Positions 10,179 through 53,003 of a stretch of 64,000 bases of DNA are shown piece after piece. How positions within the stretch are numbered: position 1 is the first letter of the stretch; every line of letters begins with the position of its first letter. Source of the stretch: Chitinophaga sancti. GTDB taxonomy: Bacteria > Bacteroidota > Bacteroidia > Chitinophagales > Chitinophagaceae. The translations under genes and the position numbers were made by a program. The stretch covers positions 4,836,001 through 4,900,000 of the forward strand of contig NZ_CP139972.1 of NCBI RefSeq assembly GCF_034424315.1, in the 5' to 3' direction. The notes under the pieces were generated by a model. The model was not told the DNA's origin. It did no database searches and saw nothing but the letters and a program-made list of their open reading frames with translations.

Positions 10179-10932
10179 AGCGCAAAAGTATAACCCTCAG
10201 CAATGCTAAAAATGTAAATTTCTCTCATATCAATGCCGCCATCAACTTAACTCAGAACTTCGCATGGCCAAGGAAACGATGTTCACGGCTCCAGGGAATT
10301 GGAACTGTGACACTTAGATGCTTTATTATGATAAAAAAAAGAGGAAGTAAACAGGCGGGGTATCGGGAGTTCCTGCAAAAAAAACATTGCCTCCCTAAGC
10401 ATCATATTAGATTTATTCTAAAAAATAAGAAAACTTTTAAAAAAATTCATTTTTAAAAATATTTTTTTGTTAAAAAACAAATCTCTAAATTTAATCAACA
10501 CAGCGAAACAGCTGTATAACATTCAAAATCTAAAGAAGGCCCAAAGTCACACTATCCCAGAATGTCGTTTGAAAAAGAGCAGCTACGAATTGCACTATCT
10601 TAATAACCATCTATTATTAGCCCATGTGTATCTTTTGTCAACAAAAATAAACTGACTTAAAAACTCAATCTAAATTGTCTGATTCCCATGTATGTGGGTA
10701 AAATCCGTATCGATCCTCAAAATAAACTGTATGAGAATAGCACTATAATCAAAATACAATTTTATCGTGCCCTATTTGCTGTCACATAGTGTGATAAAAT
10801 TCGTATACCCTATTTTTCCATCCACCACAAATTATTCCAACATATTCTGCAGAACGAGGGTCAGCCGAAAACCTCTGTAAAAGAGTAGGCATTTGTTATC
10901 AATCAAATTTAGTCTTTTATTACAAAGGCAAA
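10179..10932. other. Long intergenic region before the peptide cluster
   Basis: About 750 bp separate the aldolase from the divergent peptide precursor. The sequence is very AT-rich around 10420-10480. It holds short open frames (for example 10328-10462, a Lys-rich 44 codons) that I do not believe. It must contain the promoter of the peptide operon. I see no perfect TAnnTTTG box next to the start and no clear operator. Confidence 0.4.
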
Positions 10933-48018: not shown

Positions 48019-48174
48019 ATGAGATTTGACAAGGTTTCCCCAATAGCAGCCCTTGCTCCTTATATTAAATATTATGTGATCGCTGAGAATACACCGGCTG
48101 GGCAGTATACAGTTTTTCCTTCTACAAGTATGGTGATTGGGTTTCAGTATAGCGGATCTTTTTATAAATACTAA
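48019..48174 (+). pseudogene. Truncated AraC-type regulator, N-terminus only
   Basis: The 51 residues (MRFDKVSPIAALAPYIKYYV, then FPSTSMVIGFQYSGSFYK) match the N-terminal sensing domain of Bacteroidota AraC regulators. It stops at TAA just before a DUF1398 gene. The DNA-binding half is absent, so it is a deletion relic. Confidence 0.65.
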
Positions 48175-48179
48175 TAAAA

Positions 48180-48569
48180 ATGGTTACAATACAGGAGATA
48201 AAAAATGCGCATGCAAAGGTAAGATCGGGAGTGGATTTCCCTCAATATATCAGGGATTTGAAGGGCTTAGGAATAGTGAGGTATGAGACGTATGTATCAG
48301 ATGGACATACGGAGTATTGGACTGAGAATGGGGAGACGGTTATTTCCGAGGAAAAGTATGATTTTTTGGAGGTGGAAAAAATGAGTAATGTGGAAGGATT
48401 CAGGAGGGGATTGAGGGAGCATCAGGAAGGGAAGAGTGATTATATGGGGTTTTGCAGGATGTGTGCGGAGAATGGGGTGAAGAAGTGGGTGGTGAGTATG
48501 GGGGAGATGACGTGTGTATATTTTGATGTGAGCGGGGTGATGATGGTGGAGGAGAGGATACCGGAATAA
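48180..48569 (+). CDS. DUF1398-family protein
   Basis: The 129-aa soluble protein has the DUF1398 pattern: VDFPQYIRDLKGLGIVRYETYVSDGHTEY in the first half and FCRMCAENGVKKWVVSMGEMTCVYFDVSG in the second. The family includes E. coli YbcV and has no established function. It begins 5 bp after the AraC relic, so its insertion or the flanking deletion removed the regulator's second half. The frame is intact. Confidence 0.8.
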   Translation: MVTIQEIKNAHAKVRSGVDFPQYIRDLKGLGIVRYETYVSDGHTEYWTENGETVISEEKYDFLEVEKMSNVEGFRRGLREHQEGKSDYMGFCRMCAENGVKKWVVSMGEMTCVYFDVSGVMMVEERIPE

Positions 48570-48745
48570 AGAAAATGATTTATATTTGTGTATAAACTAA
48601 AAAGCCAGGTGCTACGAACACCTGACTTTGAGAGCAGCTCAGAAAAAAATTTCCAGAGTGCTATTAGTTTTAGAGCGAACTCGACCAATTTGGTGAGACC
48701 GTCAAGGGTTACTAAAAACCTTGACGGTTTTCTATTTTCTCTCAT
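48440..48745 (-). CDS. Copy A of a structured small-peptide gene, stop codon lost
   Basis: The first 37 codons from the ATG at 48745 (RKPSRFLVTLDGLTKLVEFA, then LIALWKFF) are a paralogue of the 36-aa peptide encoded at 49196-49306. Where copy B has TAG, copy A has GAG, so the frame runs on. The conserved terminator (48601-48627) lies inside this extension, so a terminated mRNA would have no stop codon. Either the copy is degenerate or the stop-less transcript matters. The codons after the terminator overlap the DUF1398 gene and are not believable coding sequence. Confidence 0.5.
   Translation of the reverse strand: MRENRKPSRFLVTLDGLTKLVEFALKLIALWKFFSELLSKSGVRSTWLFSLYTNINHFLYSGILSSTIITPLTSKYTHVISPILTTHFFTPFSAHILQNPI
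48601..48627 (-). terminator. Terminator of small-peptide copy A
   Basis: On the minus strand TCAGGTG, a 7-nt loop TTCGTAG, CACCTGG and then CTTTTTAG. It occupies the same relative position as the terminator of copy B. Confidence 0.65.
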
Positions 48746-48846
48746 GTTGTTTTGTCGGCTGTTTTGTCAGCCGCCTCACCGCAGAGAAAGCCGCAAGGCG
48801 GCTAACCACAGCGATCCTCAACACTAGCTATTAATCGCTACTTCAA

Positions 48847-48922
48847 TAGCACTGATTCGTAGTCATTGCTACAAATCTATCGTAAATAACTATACGACAT
48901 GCTTTCAAATTCACCGATCAAA
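48847..48922 (-). promoter_or_regulatory. Conserved 76-bp promoter block of copy A
   Basis: 71 of 76 bp are identical to 49391-49466, far above the similarity of the coding part. On the minus strand it includes TAGATTTG (48872-48879), a perfect -7 element, giving a leader of about 120 nt. In the leader, AGCCGCC (48769-48775) pairs with GGCGGCT (48797-48803) just upstream of the start codon. Confidence 0.7.
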
Positions 48923-49151
48923 ATGACGGTTACAAGATCGTCATCATTCCCCCATAACCATCTACAGAAGAGGGTTTACTAATTGAGAATTCAAAGACTA
49001 GAATAGAAATATTAATACATTTTTGATACATATATTACCAGTACTTTCTTCAAAAAAAATGAACGTATCAGAGAGAGAATAGAGGAACGGTTATTTTTGA
49101 AAAGCGATATGAGAACGGTTTGGGATTGGTAAAATGTCGTAAATTTGAATT

Positions 49152-49184
49152 AATAAAAATATCCGGGCGCTACTAACACCCGGA
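49152..49184 (-). terminator. Terminator of small-peptide copy B
   Basis: On the minus strand TCCGGGTG (49184-49177), loop TTAGTAG, CGCCCGGA (49169-49162) and then TATTTTTATT. It follows 11 bp after the stop codon. Confidence 0.8.
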
Positions 49185-49195
49185 CATTTCTTAGG

Positions 49196-49306
49196 CTAGT
49201 GAAATAATTTCCACAAAGCCGCCAGTTTTGTGATTACATCCACCACTTTCGTGATGCCTTCCAGGGAGCTACTAGAAACCCTGGAAGGTTTCTTATTTTT
49301 CACCAT
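49196..49306 (-). CDS. Copy B: 36-aa cationic amphipathic peptide
   Basis: The ATG at 49306 opens a 36-codon frame: a basic start (MVKNKKPSR), a serine run, and an amphipathic helix (LEGITKVVDVITKLAALWKL, ending FH). It has seven Lys/Arg and two acidic residues. Codons 6-17 form a hairpin (CTTCCAGGG with CCCTGGAAGG, 49258-49289) whose stem is also present in copy A with a different sequence (CCGTCAAGG with CCTTGACGG). The pattern suggests a membrane-active peptide under RNA-structure control, such as a type I toxin-like or signalling peptide. No known family is recognised. The next gene is a TonB receptor terminated separately. Confidence 0.65.
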   Translation of the reverse strand: MVKNKKPSRVSSSSLEGITKVVDVITKLAALWKLFH

Positions 49307-49390
49307 ATAAGTACGGCTTTTTATTTAGCCGCCTCCGTTGACAGGCAGCCTATAAGGCGTTTATATAGCCGCTATTACGAATCAATTAAT

Positions 49391-49466
49391 AGCGCTGATT
49401 AGTAGTCATTATTACAAATCTATCATAAATAACTATACGACATGCTTTCAAATTCACCGATCAAAT
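49391..49466 (-). promoter_or_regulatory. Conserved 76-bp promoter block of copy B
   Basis: It is nearly identical to 48847-48922, with the -7 box TAGATTTG at 49416-49423 and a predicted leader of about 105 nt. A weaker leader hairpin (CGCCT 49330-49334 with AGGCG 49355-49359) sits at the same place as in copy A. Confidence 0.7.
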
Positions 49467-49760: not shown

Positions 49761-52700
49761 CTAGAAACTATACCTCAAACCTAACTGCATCTGATGTCTG
49801 CTCGCAAAGAAATCTTTTGAATAAGGTGTACCAGGATTAGACCATGTATACACCGGATTCGTACTTGCAGTACCCGCAGTAGCCGTCTTCAAACCTACAC
49901 TCGCCATTGAGTTGAACGTGTTTGGAGAGAAATACTGAACACCCCAATTCTTATTAATCAGGTTCGTCACATTTACGATATCATAAGTAAGTGAAATCGT
50001 ATGCAGGGTCTTTCCACTCTTGAAATTAAAATCCTGCGTGAAACGGAAGTCAGCAGAAGTATTCCATGGTGTACGACCACCATTACGCTCTGTAAACTCA
50101 CCCTTACGTGTCTTCAGATACTTATCGCCCTCCACATAAGCCCAGAACGCATCCGCCAGTGACTCATTAGCTGCTGTAAAGAATGAACGTGCTTCTGTCT
50201 GATCCTTTGGAATATACACCAGGCTCACCTGCTGTGGTGTACCCTGGATGGTGCTGTTTACAAAACCATATGTGAAAGGAACACCAGAAGATGTATTGAA
50301 AAACACTGCGAAGTTAGCTACCCAACGATTCTGCTTTGTCCAGTCAACCTTGTAAGATGCTGTTGCAACTACGCGATGACGAATATCAAAGTTAGAATAA
50401 GCCAGACCTGGATTGTTAGGATTCAGCGCCTGGTTCAGCTGCCAGTTAGACTCCATTGAGTTACGGATACCATTCGTGATATCTTTAGACTGACCGTAAG
50501 TATATGCTACACTTGCATTCAGACCAAACTTCCATGTCTTGTTAGCAGAACCTGTAATGCTGTAACGATAACCCTGTTTAGTATTTGACAACAGGTAAGC
50601 GTTTGTATACTTAGAGTTGATCTTAGCACCAGTATAAATAGGCTGCTGGTGTTTAGTATCATATGGCAGATAATATGGATTATCAACCAGGTTTACCTGC
50701 TGGAATTTCAGGTCATTGATAGTCTTGGTATAGATAGCTTCAACTGTGAAACGCCATTGGTTAGAAGTAGAATAATCTAACGCTAAGCTGCTTCTCCACA
50801 TAGATGGCATCTTAAAGTTATTATCGATCATATCCACCTGTGTAGCACCTTTTGCATCATGTACATCTACACCCTGGGCAGTTACGAATTGTGCAGCACC
50901 CTGGTTGCCCACCTTTACAGGATTAGAACCCGCAGCAGGTGCATCAGCAGCACTTGTGTAACCAAACTTCTTATCATATGCACCATAAGTTACACCATTG
51001 TTGTAGTAAGCATAACCTAACCATGCAAAAGGAATACGACCGGTGAAGATACCAGTACCACCACGCAGTATCAGGCTCTGGTCACCATTGATGTCGAAGT
51101 TGAAACCTAAGCGGGGAGAGATCTGTACATTATTCAGGTACTTATTCTTTATATCGCTTGGCTTAGTATATGTATAGGTAGTACCGTAATTTGCGTCGGT
51201 AGGAGAACCAGTTGTTTTATCACTCAGCGGTTGCTTGTTAGGCAGGCTGGTATAATCTAAACGGATACCAGGAGTCAGTTTGAAACGATCAGTTACCTGG
51301 ATCTCATCCTGTGCATACAGGGAGTAAAGGTTGATCTTGAACGCTGCTGGTGGGTTAGCCATGATATAATCACGTGAGTTATCAGTGTAGTTGAAGTTAC
51401 CACGTACACGGCTAGGCTTATCAGCCAGGAAATTAGCAACGCTGCTATAGTCAACACGGCCGTTCCAGGAGTTTACGAAACCATAAGTGATGTTGTAAAA
51501 CTCGTTGTGTGTACCGATGTTGATGTTATGTCTTCCTTTGAAGATATTCACGTTATCGGTGAATTCAAAGGTCTTTTGTTTCATGTTGAAGATGGCAGCT
51601 TCACGGTCAGTTCCTAAGAAGATGGTACCACCATTGCTCGCGATCTGGATCTGAGGCAGTGAAGGATCAGACAGTGGATCACGATAGTCATGAATGCTGC
51701 TGTAACCCAGTATCAAACTGTTGGATACCGTGTTGTTGAAATGGCTTTTCAACTCAGCCACAGTAGATGTCTGGTTATTGGTTTGTTTGTAGTCAATACC
51801 GCTGAAACGGAAGTTCTGCTGGTCACGCTCCAGGTTAGTAGCCTCGGAGAGGATGGTATTGTTACGGATAGACAGCTGATGCTTGTCGTTGATGTTCCAG
51901 TCTAAACGGTTAAAGAACTTAGTAGAGTTGGAATAGATATTATAGTTACCGTAAGTACCGGCGTTATATTTACCAGTTTTATCCACATCCAGTGCTGCCA
52001 TGTGGTCAGCAATCTGTTGTGCCTGATCTGCAGTCAGCAAAGTCATGTCAGAAGAACCAGCAGCGAGGATCACAGGATCCTGACGACGGGTGATCTCTTC
52101 GTTGGTAAAGAAGAACAATTTGTCTTTGATGATTGGGAAACCAACACGAACACCTGTCTGATATTCATGGAAGCTGGAAGGTTCTTTAGAACCATCACCT
52201 GCATTGTTCTTACCAATCATAGATGCATTACGACCAAAAGCGTAAATGGAAGCATGTACTTCGTTTGTACCACTACGTGTTACCGCATTGATACTACCAC
52301 CCAGGAAGTTACCAATCTTCACATCGTAAGGAGCCAGGTATACCTGGATATCCTGCACGGCATCCAGAGAAACCGGGTTAGTACGGGTAGAGCTACCAGG
52401 CTGTCCGGAGCTGTTAGTCTGACCACCCAGTGAAGGGCTAAAGCCGATAGCATCGTTATTGATAGCACCATCCAGGGTTACGTTGTTATAACGGAAGTTA
52501 GAACCCAGGAAGGAGTTGTTATTACTTTGTGGGGTACCACGGGTAAAGTCCTGGAAGCTACGGTTCAGGGAAGGCAATGTCTTCAACGCGTTCTGGCCTA
52601 CACGGAAACCACCTGGTTTACCGGTGTTATTTCCTTTTACTACTACTTCACTCAGTGCAGTAGATTCATCGCGGAGCTGGAAGTTGAAGGTTACGCTACC

Positions 52701-53003
52701 GAGAGATAAGTTGATATCAGATCTTTCTTCCTTCTTAAATCCGATGAAGGAAACGGTGATGGTATAAGGACCACCAGGATTCAGGTTGTTGATGAGGTAA
52801 CGGCCCTCGGCATTCGTTTGTCCACCATATTTAGTTCCGGTACCAGTATTTATAGCAAGTACAGTTACACCTGGCAAAGGTTCACCCTTCGCGCTTACTA
52901 CTTTACCTGTAAGTGTGGATGTAGTGATCTGCGCCTCTACGTTGGTTGCAGCAAGTACAAGGATACTAAATAAAAAAATTACTGAAGAGTAAATCTTATT
53001 CAC
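49761..53003 (-). CDS. TonB-dependent receptor, Oar-like
   Basis: The 1,080-aa outer-membrane receptor has a signal peptide (ILVLAATNVEAQ), a carboxypeptidase-regulatory-like domain (STLTGKVVSAKGEPLPGVTVL to about residue 115), a plug domain (GFRVGQNALKTLPSLNRSFQDF, VTLDGAINNDAIGFSP, GTNEVHASIYAFGRN) and a large barrel ending in LGLRYSF, with the aromatic last residue needed for assembly. It resembles Oar-type proteins. It is preceded by two phased-repeat promoters (53021-53077 and 53238-53283) shared with phosphate genes, so its ligand is probably phosphate-related, perhaps an organophosphate or nucleic acid. The ligand is inferred only. Confidence 0.9.
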   Translation of the reverse strand: MNKIYSSVIFLFSILVLAATNVEAQITTSTLTGKVVSAKGEPLPGVTVLAINTGTGTKYGGQTNAEGRYLINNLNPGGPYTITVSFIGFKKEERSDINLSLGSVTFNFQLRDESTALSEVVVKGNNTGKPGGFRVGQNALKTLPSLNRSFQDFTRGTPQSNNNSFLGSNFRYNNVTLDGAINNDAIGFSPSLGGQTNSSGQPGSSTRTNPVSLDAVQDIQVYLAPYDVKIGNFLGGSINAVTRSGTNEVHASIYAFGRNASMIGKNNAGDGSKEPSSFHEYQTGVRVGFPIIKDKLFFFTNEEITRRQDPVILAAGSSDMTLLTADQAQQIADHMAALDVDKTGKYNAGTYGNYNIYSNSTKFFNRLDWNINDKHQLSIRNNTILSEATNLERDQQNFRFSGIDYKQTNNQTSTVAELKSHFNNTVSNSLILGYSSIHDYRDPLSDPSLPQIQIASNGGTIFLGTDREAAIFNMKQKTFEFTDNVNIFKGRHNINIGTHNEFYNITYGFVNSWNGRVDYSSVANFLADKPSRVRGNFNYTDNSRDYIMANPPAAFKINLYSLYAQDEIQVTDRFKLTPGIRLDYTSLPNKQPLSDKTTGSPTDANYGTTYTYTKPSDIKNKYLNNVQISPRLGFNFDINGDQSLILRGGTGIFTGRIPFAWLGYAYYNNGVTYGAYDKKFGYTSAADAPAAGSNPVKVGNQGAAQFVTAQGVDVHDAKGATQVDMIDNNFKMPSMWRSSLALDYSTSNQWRFTVEAIYTKTINDLKFQQVNLVDNPYYLPYDTKHQQPIYTGAKINSKYTNAYLLSNTKQGYRYSITGSANKTWKFGLNASVAYTYGQSKDITNGIRNSMESNWQLNQALNPNNPGLAYSNFDIRHRVVATASYKVDWTKQNRWVANFAVFFNTSSGVPFTYGFVNSTIQGTPQQVSLVYIPKDQTEARSFFTAANESLADAFWAYVEGDKYLKTRKGEFTERNGGRTPWNTSADFRFTQDFNFKSGKTLHTISLTYDIVNVTNLINKNWGVQYFSPNTFNSMASVGLKTATAGTASTNPVYTWSNPGTPYSKDFFASRHQMQLGLRYSF

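Follow-up and report, generated by a model that had tools for sequence, protein, structure and literature searches.

Two adjacent minus-strand units on the chromosome of Chitinophaga sancti each appear to be a type I toxin-antitoxin-like module, in which the gene for a small peptide is guarded by an antisense RNA predicted on the opposite strand; from comparison of the sequences, we place the probability of this reading at roughly three in four. The units lie in a stretch of 64,000 nucleotides (the window, meaning the whole stretch of DNA that was analysed) of a single-contig genome of 8.4 Mb. In the proposed scheme, a TAnnTTTG promoter would give rise to an mRNA of ~260 nt encoding a Lys-rich helical peptide of 35-37 amino acids that may harm its own cell. 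From the opposite strand, a second promoter situated immediately beyond the mRNA terminator would drive an antisense RNA of ~133-146 nt that starts at the mRNA terminator hairpin and stops at its own terminator inside codons 2-17 of the peptide gene. The original prediction had proposed a peptide under RNA-structure control, with type I toxin-like, signalling and antimicrobial roles as options. Copies in other genomes and compensatory changes uphold the RNA-structure part, the antisense partner had been missed, and of the three options a type I toxin-like role is the most likely.

Organization of the two units

Copy B occupies positions 49158-49422 of the window and copy A positions 48601-48879. 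The pair is flanked by a DUF1398 gene (48180-48569, plus strand) and by the gene (49761-53003, minus strand) of an outer-membrane beta-barrel protein that carries a CarboxypepD_reg domain and that we take to be SusC-like. Two other features of the window were noted, a 51-aa ORF just upstream of the DUF1398 gene (48019-48174, plus strand), which we take to resemble the N-terminal stub of an AraC-type regulator, and an Rfam DUF805b RNA motif (RF02914) at 10855-10891 on the plus strand, scoring 39.4 bits and thus above the gathering score.

Sequence comparison and BLAST delimit a duplicated promoter and leader block on the minus strand, at 49387..49466 in copy B and 48845..48922 in copy A. The two blocks are identical at 73 of 78 positions by alignment (94% by BLAST), in agreement with the 71 identities over 76 bp first noted for the pair. 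No further occurrence in the 8.4 Mb genome has a meaningful E-value, all other listed matches having E >= 0.3, and a BLAST search of the block against 244 genomes of the taxonomic family gave, beyond the window's own two, matches of 17-48 bases only. Both blocks carry the predicted mRNA -7 promoter box TAGATTTG on the minus strand (49415..49422 in copy B, 48872..48879 in copy A), which follows TAnnTTTG, the -7 consensus printed for Bacteroides and Flavobacterium in the accessible part of PMC7366714; a sigma-70 promoter scan is uninformative for this phylum. At the predicted 5′-end of the mRNA stands a hairpin with a three-pair stem in copy B (TGA[CTACTAA]TCA, 49396..49408, loop 49399-49405, minus strand), and its counterpart in copy A (TGA[CTACGAA]TCA, 48853..48865, loop 48856-48862, minus strand) has a loop complementary to that of its own terminator.

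The ORF list and homology place the peptide of copy B, MVKNKKPSRVSSSSLEGITKVVDVITKLAALWKLFH, at 49199..49306 on the minus strand with its stop codon at 49196-49198, and translation of the ORF confirms its length of 36 aa. It is followed on the same strand by a mRNA terminator hairpin recognised by folding (49161..49185), whose loop TTAGTAG (49170-49176) reads CTACTAA on the plus strand, where the same hairpin would be the 5′ hairpin of the antisense RNA. In copy A, the part of the ORF homologous to the peptide, MRENRKPSRFLVTLDGLTKLVEFALKLIALWKFF, lies at 48644..48745 (minus strand), and the terminator hairpin found by folding and by a terminator scan lies at 48605..48625 with the loop TTCGTAG (48612-48618, minus strand). 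The copy A frame runs for 101 aa, to 48440, without a stop ahead of the terminator, owing to a frameshift, by comparison with its relatives, close to where the peptide ends. Both units of the predicted tandem pair are present, but copy A looks like a broken copy and not a functioning twin. The -7 box, the terminator loops and the 9-10 bp stems at codons 6-17 all lie where they had been placed. A leader hairpin just before the start codon had also been described for both copies; only 8 of 22 loci, copy A included and copy B not, have an A-rich (AAAA) loop on their best local hairpin. In a separate observation, the leader of a B-type copy in another genome (L087, in G287) contains a 23-bp perfect inverted repeat with a 6-nt spacer, from about -65 to -13 relative to the start codon, which is possibly a miniature element.

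Distribution of the family

A 15-row peptide profile, with a cut-off of E <= 1e-15 for full-length members, identified 22 full-length matches in 16 of 79 Chitinophaga genomes, copy A among them, so that the pair does have further copies in related genomes. Three weaker profile matches comprise a decayed copy (L096), a match judged to be chance (L089) and one left out of the counts (L088). Decayed copies were added by a covariance model search, including a second tandem partner in G302, ~0.6 kb away. Decayed copies that keep traces of the family and have lost the frame are L132 (G269), L133 (G302) and L134 (G268), the last being the only one read among the other RNA-model matches with E > 0.0005. 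Outside the genus, 394 genomes of the taxonomic family yielded two further relatives, in G060 and G216, which the RNA model recovered at E 8e-20 and 3e-9.

Across 395 genomes of the phylum, seven matches were obtained beside the window's own two, none of them judged credible; the three that were read out (L100, L101, L105) were taken as chance, and L102, L103, L104 and L106 were discounted, as each spans 15-18 of 36 positions within a longer frame. L098 and L089 were likewise read and judged chance, as were L064, L065 and L072. The RNA-model matches L137, L144 and L146, of which L137 alone was read, were dropped as parts of a repetitive stretch. This stretch (G359, contig 34, ~289567-289887) consists of repeated AACCTTCGAGGTTTAAGACCT-like units weakly picked up by the model, and looks like a palindromic repeat array and not a family member. 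Rfam has no family at the locus; five loci (that of copy B and those of four relatives) gave matches at E <= 0.5, all below the gathering score.

Family sites are chromosomal and differ between genomes. L073, L076 and L152 lie between genes for an AhpC/TSA protein and a beta-lactamase-fold hydrolase (both neighbours scanned), and L078 has a beta-lactamase-fold hydrolase as neighbour on the side that was scanned; other sites, for which part of the neighbours were scanned, adjoin HTH, DUF2750, DUF4260, cellulase, Oxygenase-NA or Gfo/Idh genes. Apparently one and the same site, adjoining the end of a DUF1398-like gene and/or the end of the beta-barrel gene, is occupied in G000, G287, G289, G293 and G294, with the DUF1398 side alone seen in G287. 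It holds B and a frameshifted A in G000, B and an A-type terminator remnant in G287, a leaderless A in each of G289 and G293, and a leaderless B with a full A in G294.

The tandem pairs, the nested inverted repeats, the loss and decay of copies and the presence of up to two full-length copies in a genome could let the family pass for a palindromic repeat element of the REP or MITE kind with an incidental open frame. Against such an element speak the small number of copies in each genome and the conservation of the protein frame in diverged copies whose peptides are 40-83% identical to that of copy B, and we consider this explanation barely credible.

The layout of the units was compared over a set of 24 loci, which are related, so that per-locus tests are not independent. 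The near-copy L092 (of L091) was left out of the loop, recoding, box, ORF-alignment and stop-codon-hairpin counts, L083 out of the recoding, box, ORF-alignment and stop-codon-hairpin counts, L094 out of the recoding, ORF-alignment and stop-codon-hairpin counts, and L095 out of the stop-codon-hairpin count. L099 has the wrong orientation in the loop and box layouts and is void there; it was excluded from the recoding, box, loop-pairing, alignment and hairpin counts.

A conserved hairpin within the reading frame

The hairpin at codons 6-17 had been noted as an element of the mRNA with a 9-bp stem kept in both copies despite their different sequences. This conservation exceeds chance, and the hairpin probably also serves as the terminator of the predicted antisense RNA, for which no gene had been recognised. 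Read on the plus strand, it is followed by a T-rich tract (TTTCTTATTTTT in copy B, TTTTCTATTTTCT in copy A, TTTTTTT in L084), since Lys/Asn-rich codons stand before the hairpin; in the alignments, the T-rich tract is on the antisense side of the hairpin and there is none on the sense side. The putative intrinsic terminator of copy B, CCTTCCAGGG / CCCTGGAAGG then TTTCTTATTTTT, lies within the ORF at 49257..49300 (plus strand), and that of copy A, CCGTCAAGG / CCTTGACGG then TTTTCTATTTTCT, at 48699..48740 (plus strand), both assigned on recoding and covariation. A simple terminator scan calls a plus-strand terminator at the copy B site, on another short stem (49274-49293), and misses that of copy A, the loop limit of the scan being 8.

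When the peptide was held fixed and synonymous codons were drawn at random at the codon usage of the window (1000 trials per locus), the observed stability of the hairpin was matched in only 0-17 trials at each of 20 loci. Taken by itself, the richness in A of the codons ahead of the hairpin, which gives the U-tract, is not significant at most loci, as Lys codons contain much A in any case. In the alignment of 20 loci, 97.2% of 180 stem cells are paired and 15 cells are doubly changed, values that none of 500 shuffles reached; sliding the alignment by 1-3 columns reduces pairing to 26-55%. Two weaker measures, the number of stem pairs changed on both sides (4 of 9) and the number of further pair types, were reached by 15 and 157 of 500 shuffles, respectively. 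Pairing is kept even through amino-acid changes, S to F together with D to N, and P to T together with G to V: CCGTTC...GAACGG encodes PF...NG where other loci have PS...DG, and ACATCC...GGATGT encodes TS...DV. The Lys/Asn-rich N-terminus of the peptide and its P-S-R...L-D-G residues may therefore owe their form to the antisense terminator.

A further hairpin, over the stop codon, also covaries: its mean score over 19 loci is 15.5, a value reached by none of 1000 permutations, which averaged 10.7 and went no higher than 12.55. In copy B (score 11) and L087 (score 8) this hairpin is weak. An excess of compensatory changes is therefore found in the ORF stem, in the stop-codon hairpin and in the loop pairs described below.

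The predicted antisense RNA

Candidate -7 boxes for an antisense transcript are present on the plus strand just past the mRNA terminators, as TAAATTTG at 49140..49147 in copy B and TATATTTG at 48581..48588 in copy A, both recognised by motif. Within 45 nt beyond the mRNA terminator, the search zone used for 21 loci, TAnnTTTG occurs on the antisense strand in 9 loci, as compared with a shuffle mean of 0.96 and maximum of 4. The form TAnnTTT[GA], a relaxation picked after looking at the data, occurs in 17 of the 21 (shuffle mean 2.69, maximum 8) and in none on the other strand of the same zone. Of the 17 loci that have the box, 15 place its start at 12-22 nt from the hairpin; it is absent in L081, L082, L085 and L090. 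The corresponding count for the sense box (TAnnTTTG in 13 of 21 leaders) is not used as evidence because it includes L085 and L094, whose boxes lie in the upstream gene.

Taken together, box and terminator point to an antisense transcript that would overlap the 3′ part of the gene, with a length of 133-146 nt at the 11 loci measured. In copy B, the putative antitoxin RNA of ~145 nt would span approximately 49152..49298 on the plus strand. The predicted antisense RNAs of both copies have a fold z-score of about -4.2 (-4.2 for 49158-49306 in copy B), and fold into three parts, a 5′ hairpin whose loop has 7 nt, a central portion and the terminator hairpin. As the two transcripts overlap on opposite strands, the antisense RNA would be fully complementary to the mRNA.

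It might be argued that no antisense RNA exists, and that the hairpins act in the sense mRNA only, protecting its ends and slowing early translation, with the boxes as chance matches in AT-rich DNA. The hairpins are indeed conserved as sense structures also, TAnnTTT[GA] is easily found in AT-rich sequence (shuffle mean 2.7 of 21), and four of the 21 loci have no box. The position of the T-tract on the antisense side, the strand bias of the box (17 loci against none) and its regular spacing from the hairpin nevertheless make this quite improbable, and a structure serving the sense strand alone would leave unexplained why the 5′ loop of the antisense RNA is repeated at the 5′-end of the mRNA.

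Complementary loops at the two ends of the mRNA

This repeated loop forms part of a matched triple. The terminator loop of copy B, TTAGTAG, is the exact complement of the 5′ loop CTACTAA, and that of copy A, TTCGTAG, of the 5′ loop CTACGAA. The loop change between the copies is one of the five differences in the duplicated block, and the terminator bears its compensating partner. A complement of the full 7-mer was found in the locus's own leader in 11 of 23 loci, as compared with 18 of 474 pairings of loops and leaders across loci with different loops; in this count the misoriented L099 stands as a miss, also in the cross pairs, and L092 is left out. Among the 23 correctly oriented loci, complementarity of the 5′- and 3′-ends with covariation is found in 13, in seven loop versions (the 11 above, without L099, together with the near-copy L092, whose 7-mer matches, and L076, whose loop has 6 nt), and is not found in the other ten. 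Pairing is complete, 7/7 in 11 loci with six distinct pairs and 6/6 in L076, and pairings across the six 7-nt loop classes average 3.4/7. In 10 of 10 loop-bearing loci with a sense box the 5′ loop starts 9-11 nt after the box and thus near the expected 5′-end; the loop-bearing L091, L092 and L093 have no recognisable sense box. The 5′ flanking stems are of 4-6 bp and partly differ in L074, L073, L076, L091 and L093, have only 3 bp in copies A and B, and are irregular in L081; in the RNAfold minimum of the whole copy B mRNA, the 5′ hairpin is not formed. A pairing of the ORF-hairpin loop with the 5′ loop was dropped, since it fits copy B (TAGTAG) and not the other loci looked at.

The ten correctly oriented loci that lack a complementary 5′ loop indicate that a cis kissing layer is not universal. 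Four of them (L083, L085, L094, L097) have no leader, in L077, L078, L079, L080 and L090 the leader is shorter or of another kind, and that of L082 lacks the loop; for the latter six and L097, no complement of the 7-mer is present on the same strand within 1.5 kb.

Complementarity between the antisense 5′ loop and the mRNA terminator loop suggests that the two RNAs, if transcribed, kiss and then zip into a duplex that blocks translation. The predicted antisense RNA starts at this very hairpin, which makes its 5′ loop identical in sequence to the mRNA 5′ loop, and the mRNA could occupy the antisense target site in cis, so that the two would compete. Full-length mRNA may thus be closed by its own 5′ loop until the 3′-end is trimmed, as in AapA1/IsoA1. 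The 5′ copy of the antitoxin recognition loop would then act as a mimicry lock that hides the toxin mRNA from both antitoxin and ribosomes until trimming, with drift of the matched triple giving specificity between paralogues and the antitoxin terminator residing in toxin codons; we give this full arrangement even odds. In the six genomes with two full-length matches (G267, G268, G270, G294, G296, G000), the terminator loops differ within each genome, as expected if each antisense RNA must recognise its own mRNA only.

The peptide and its possible role

The peptides of 15 aligned members are 35-37 aa long, within the range of small peptides (under about 60 aa), although the frame of copy A is shifted near its end; the A and B peptides share 52% identity. 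Copy B had been described as a cationic amphipathic helix. The net charge is +4 to +6 in all eight peptides tested, and a single-sequence structure prediction for copy B gives a helix over residues 13-35 (mean pLDDT 78.7), in keeping with the first and last terms. Amphipathicity is less well borne out, as the hydrophobic moment of the eight peptides is matched by 5 to 537 of 2000 shuffles, and that of copy B, whose best stretch is residues 5-22, by 71 of 2000; the moment is modest, and unexceptional in most of the peptides tested. Fst, Ldr and Hok are toxin families with Pfam models. No curated toxin profile of this kind, and no other family, matched the 15 members in Pfam, NCBIfam or PADLOC, where only chance-level hits were obtained (best E 0.018).

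Weak hints of toxicity, pointing in one direction, come from the state of the copies. Promoter and leader are gone in L083, L085, L094 and L097 and the ORF is kept, with the antisense TAnnTTT[GA] box retained in three of these four loci and lost in L085. The antisense box is also kept in 9 of the 10 loci that have both a sense box and a 5′ loop, and broken copies occur. Together these features hint that the peptide may be harmful.

The same overlap and folding of RNAs might instead keep at a low level a peptide that does not act on its own cell, such as a signal or a secreted antimicrobial, as antisense anatomy and covariation do not demonstrate toxicity. The peptide is cationic and predicted to be helical, and the pair in the window adjoins the gene for an outer-membrane beta-barrel protein. 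Chromosomal sites among ordinary genes, no match of one member peptide to plasmid and phage collections, and no match of one exact pattern to viral contigs would also suit such a role. Against it, no recurrent exporter or sensor was found among the 20 proteins scanned (17 neighbours of relatives and three in the window), and the retention of ORF and antisense box in promoterless copies, together with the broken copies, is what would be expected of a harmful product. We therefore regard a non-toxic peptide as unlikely, and favour a self-toxin guarded by the predicted antisense RNA.

Relation to known systems

The comparisons made here draw on the accessible portions of the papers cited. On our best reading, the systems closest in logic are AapA1/IsoA1 and hok/Sok. 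AapA1/IsoA1 employs 5′-3′ closure of the mRNA, 3′ processing and kissing with the antisense RNA (PMC8167048, PMC6733600). Like the Chitinophaga family, AapA1/IsoA1 and AapA3/IsoA3 of Helicobacter pylori combine a small peptide with an antisense RNA (predicted here) in several chromosomal copies, and the long-distance 5′-3′ contact, 3′ processing, antisense kissing loops and functional ORF hairpins of AapA1/IsoA1 all have counterparts in the reading proposed here. As far as the descriptions set them apart, the present family differs in that the cis contact is made by a 6-7 nt 5′ loop with the terminator loop, the 5′ loop repeats the antisense 5′ loop, and the antisense terminator lies inside the toxin ORF, in another phylum and with another promoter type. 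Fold-back inhibition by pairing of the mRNA ends and control by an antisense RNA would be shared with hok/Sok (PMC8167048), in which Sok acts via the overlapping mok frame, whereas the predicted antisense RNA here covers the 3′ part of the gene; the peptides, moreover, match none of the Pfam toxin models. MsoT1/MsoA1 of Microcystis (PMC12390103) is cyanobacterial and was tested in E. coli, whereas the Chitinophaga family is known from its sequence alone.

According to PMC12390103, the known type I systems are confined to Proteobacteria, Firmicutes and Tenericutes, together with one cyanobacterial candidate. For Bacteroidota, a literature search that mostly did not extend to subscription papers gave one relevant precedent, the seven putative type I toxin-antitoxin pairs of Bacteroides thetaiotaomicron seen by RNA-seq (PMC7366714). 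These belong to the same phylum and are antisense pairs with candidate small ORFs, as predicted for the present family; they differ, by description, in that both partners are said to hold candidate sORFs. A follow-up of that work lists a toxin-antitoxin class among noncoding RNAs (PMC10994844), type I systems are named in the reference lists only of PMC8092290 and PMC10367356 in the portions available, and the available part of PMC12654330 counts toxin-antitoxin systems of all types in marine Bacteroidota with no mention of 'type I TA'. Within the reach of that search the loop-mimicry arrangement was not found described, and we call the present case a new family plus this arrangement.

If the proposed scheme is true, Chitinophaga would offer a family in which natural covariation tests how a toxin mRNA evades ribosomes and its antitoxin during synthesis, with controls built in: the 13 loci whose loops match, the six copies that have a leader but no matching loop, and those that lack a promoter. 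It would also provide a case in which the terminator of an antisense RNA shapes the amino acids that a gene encodes.
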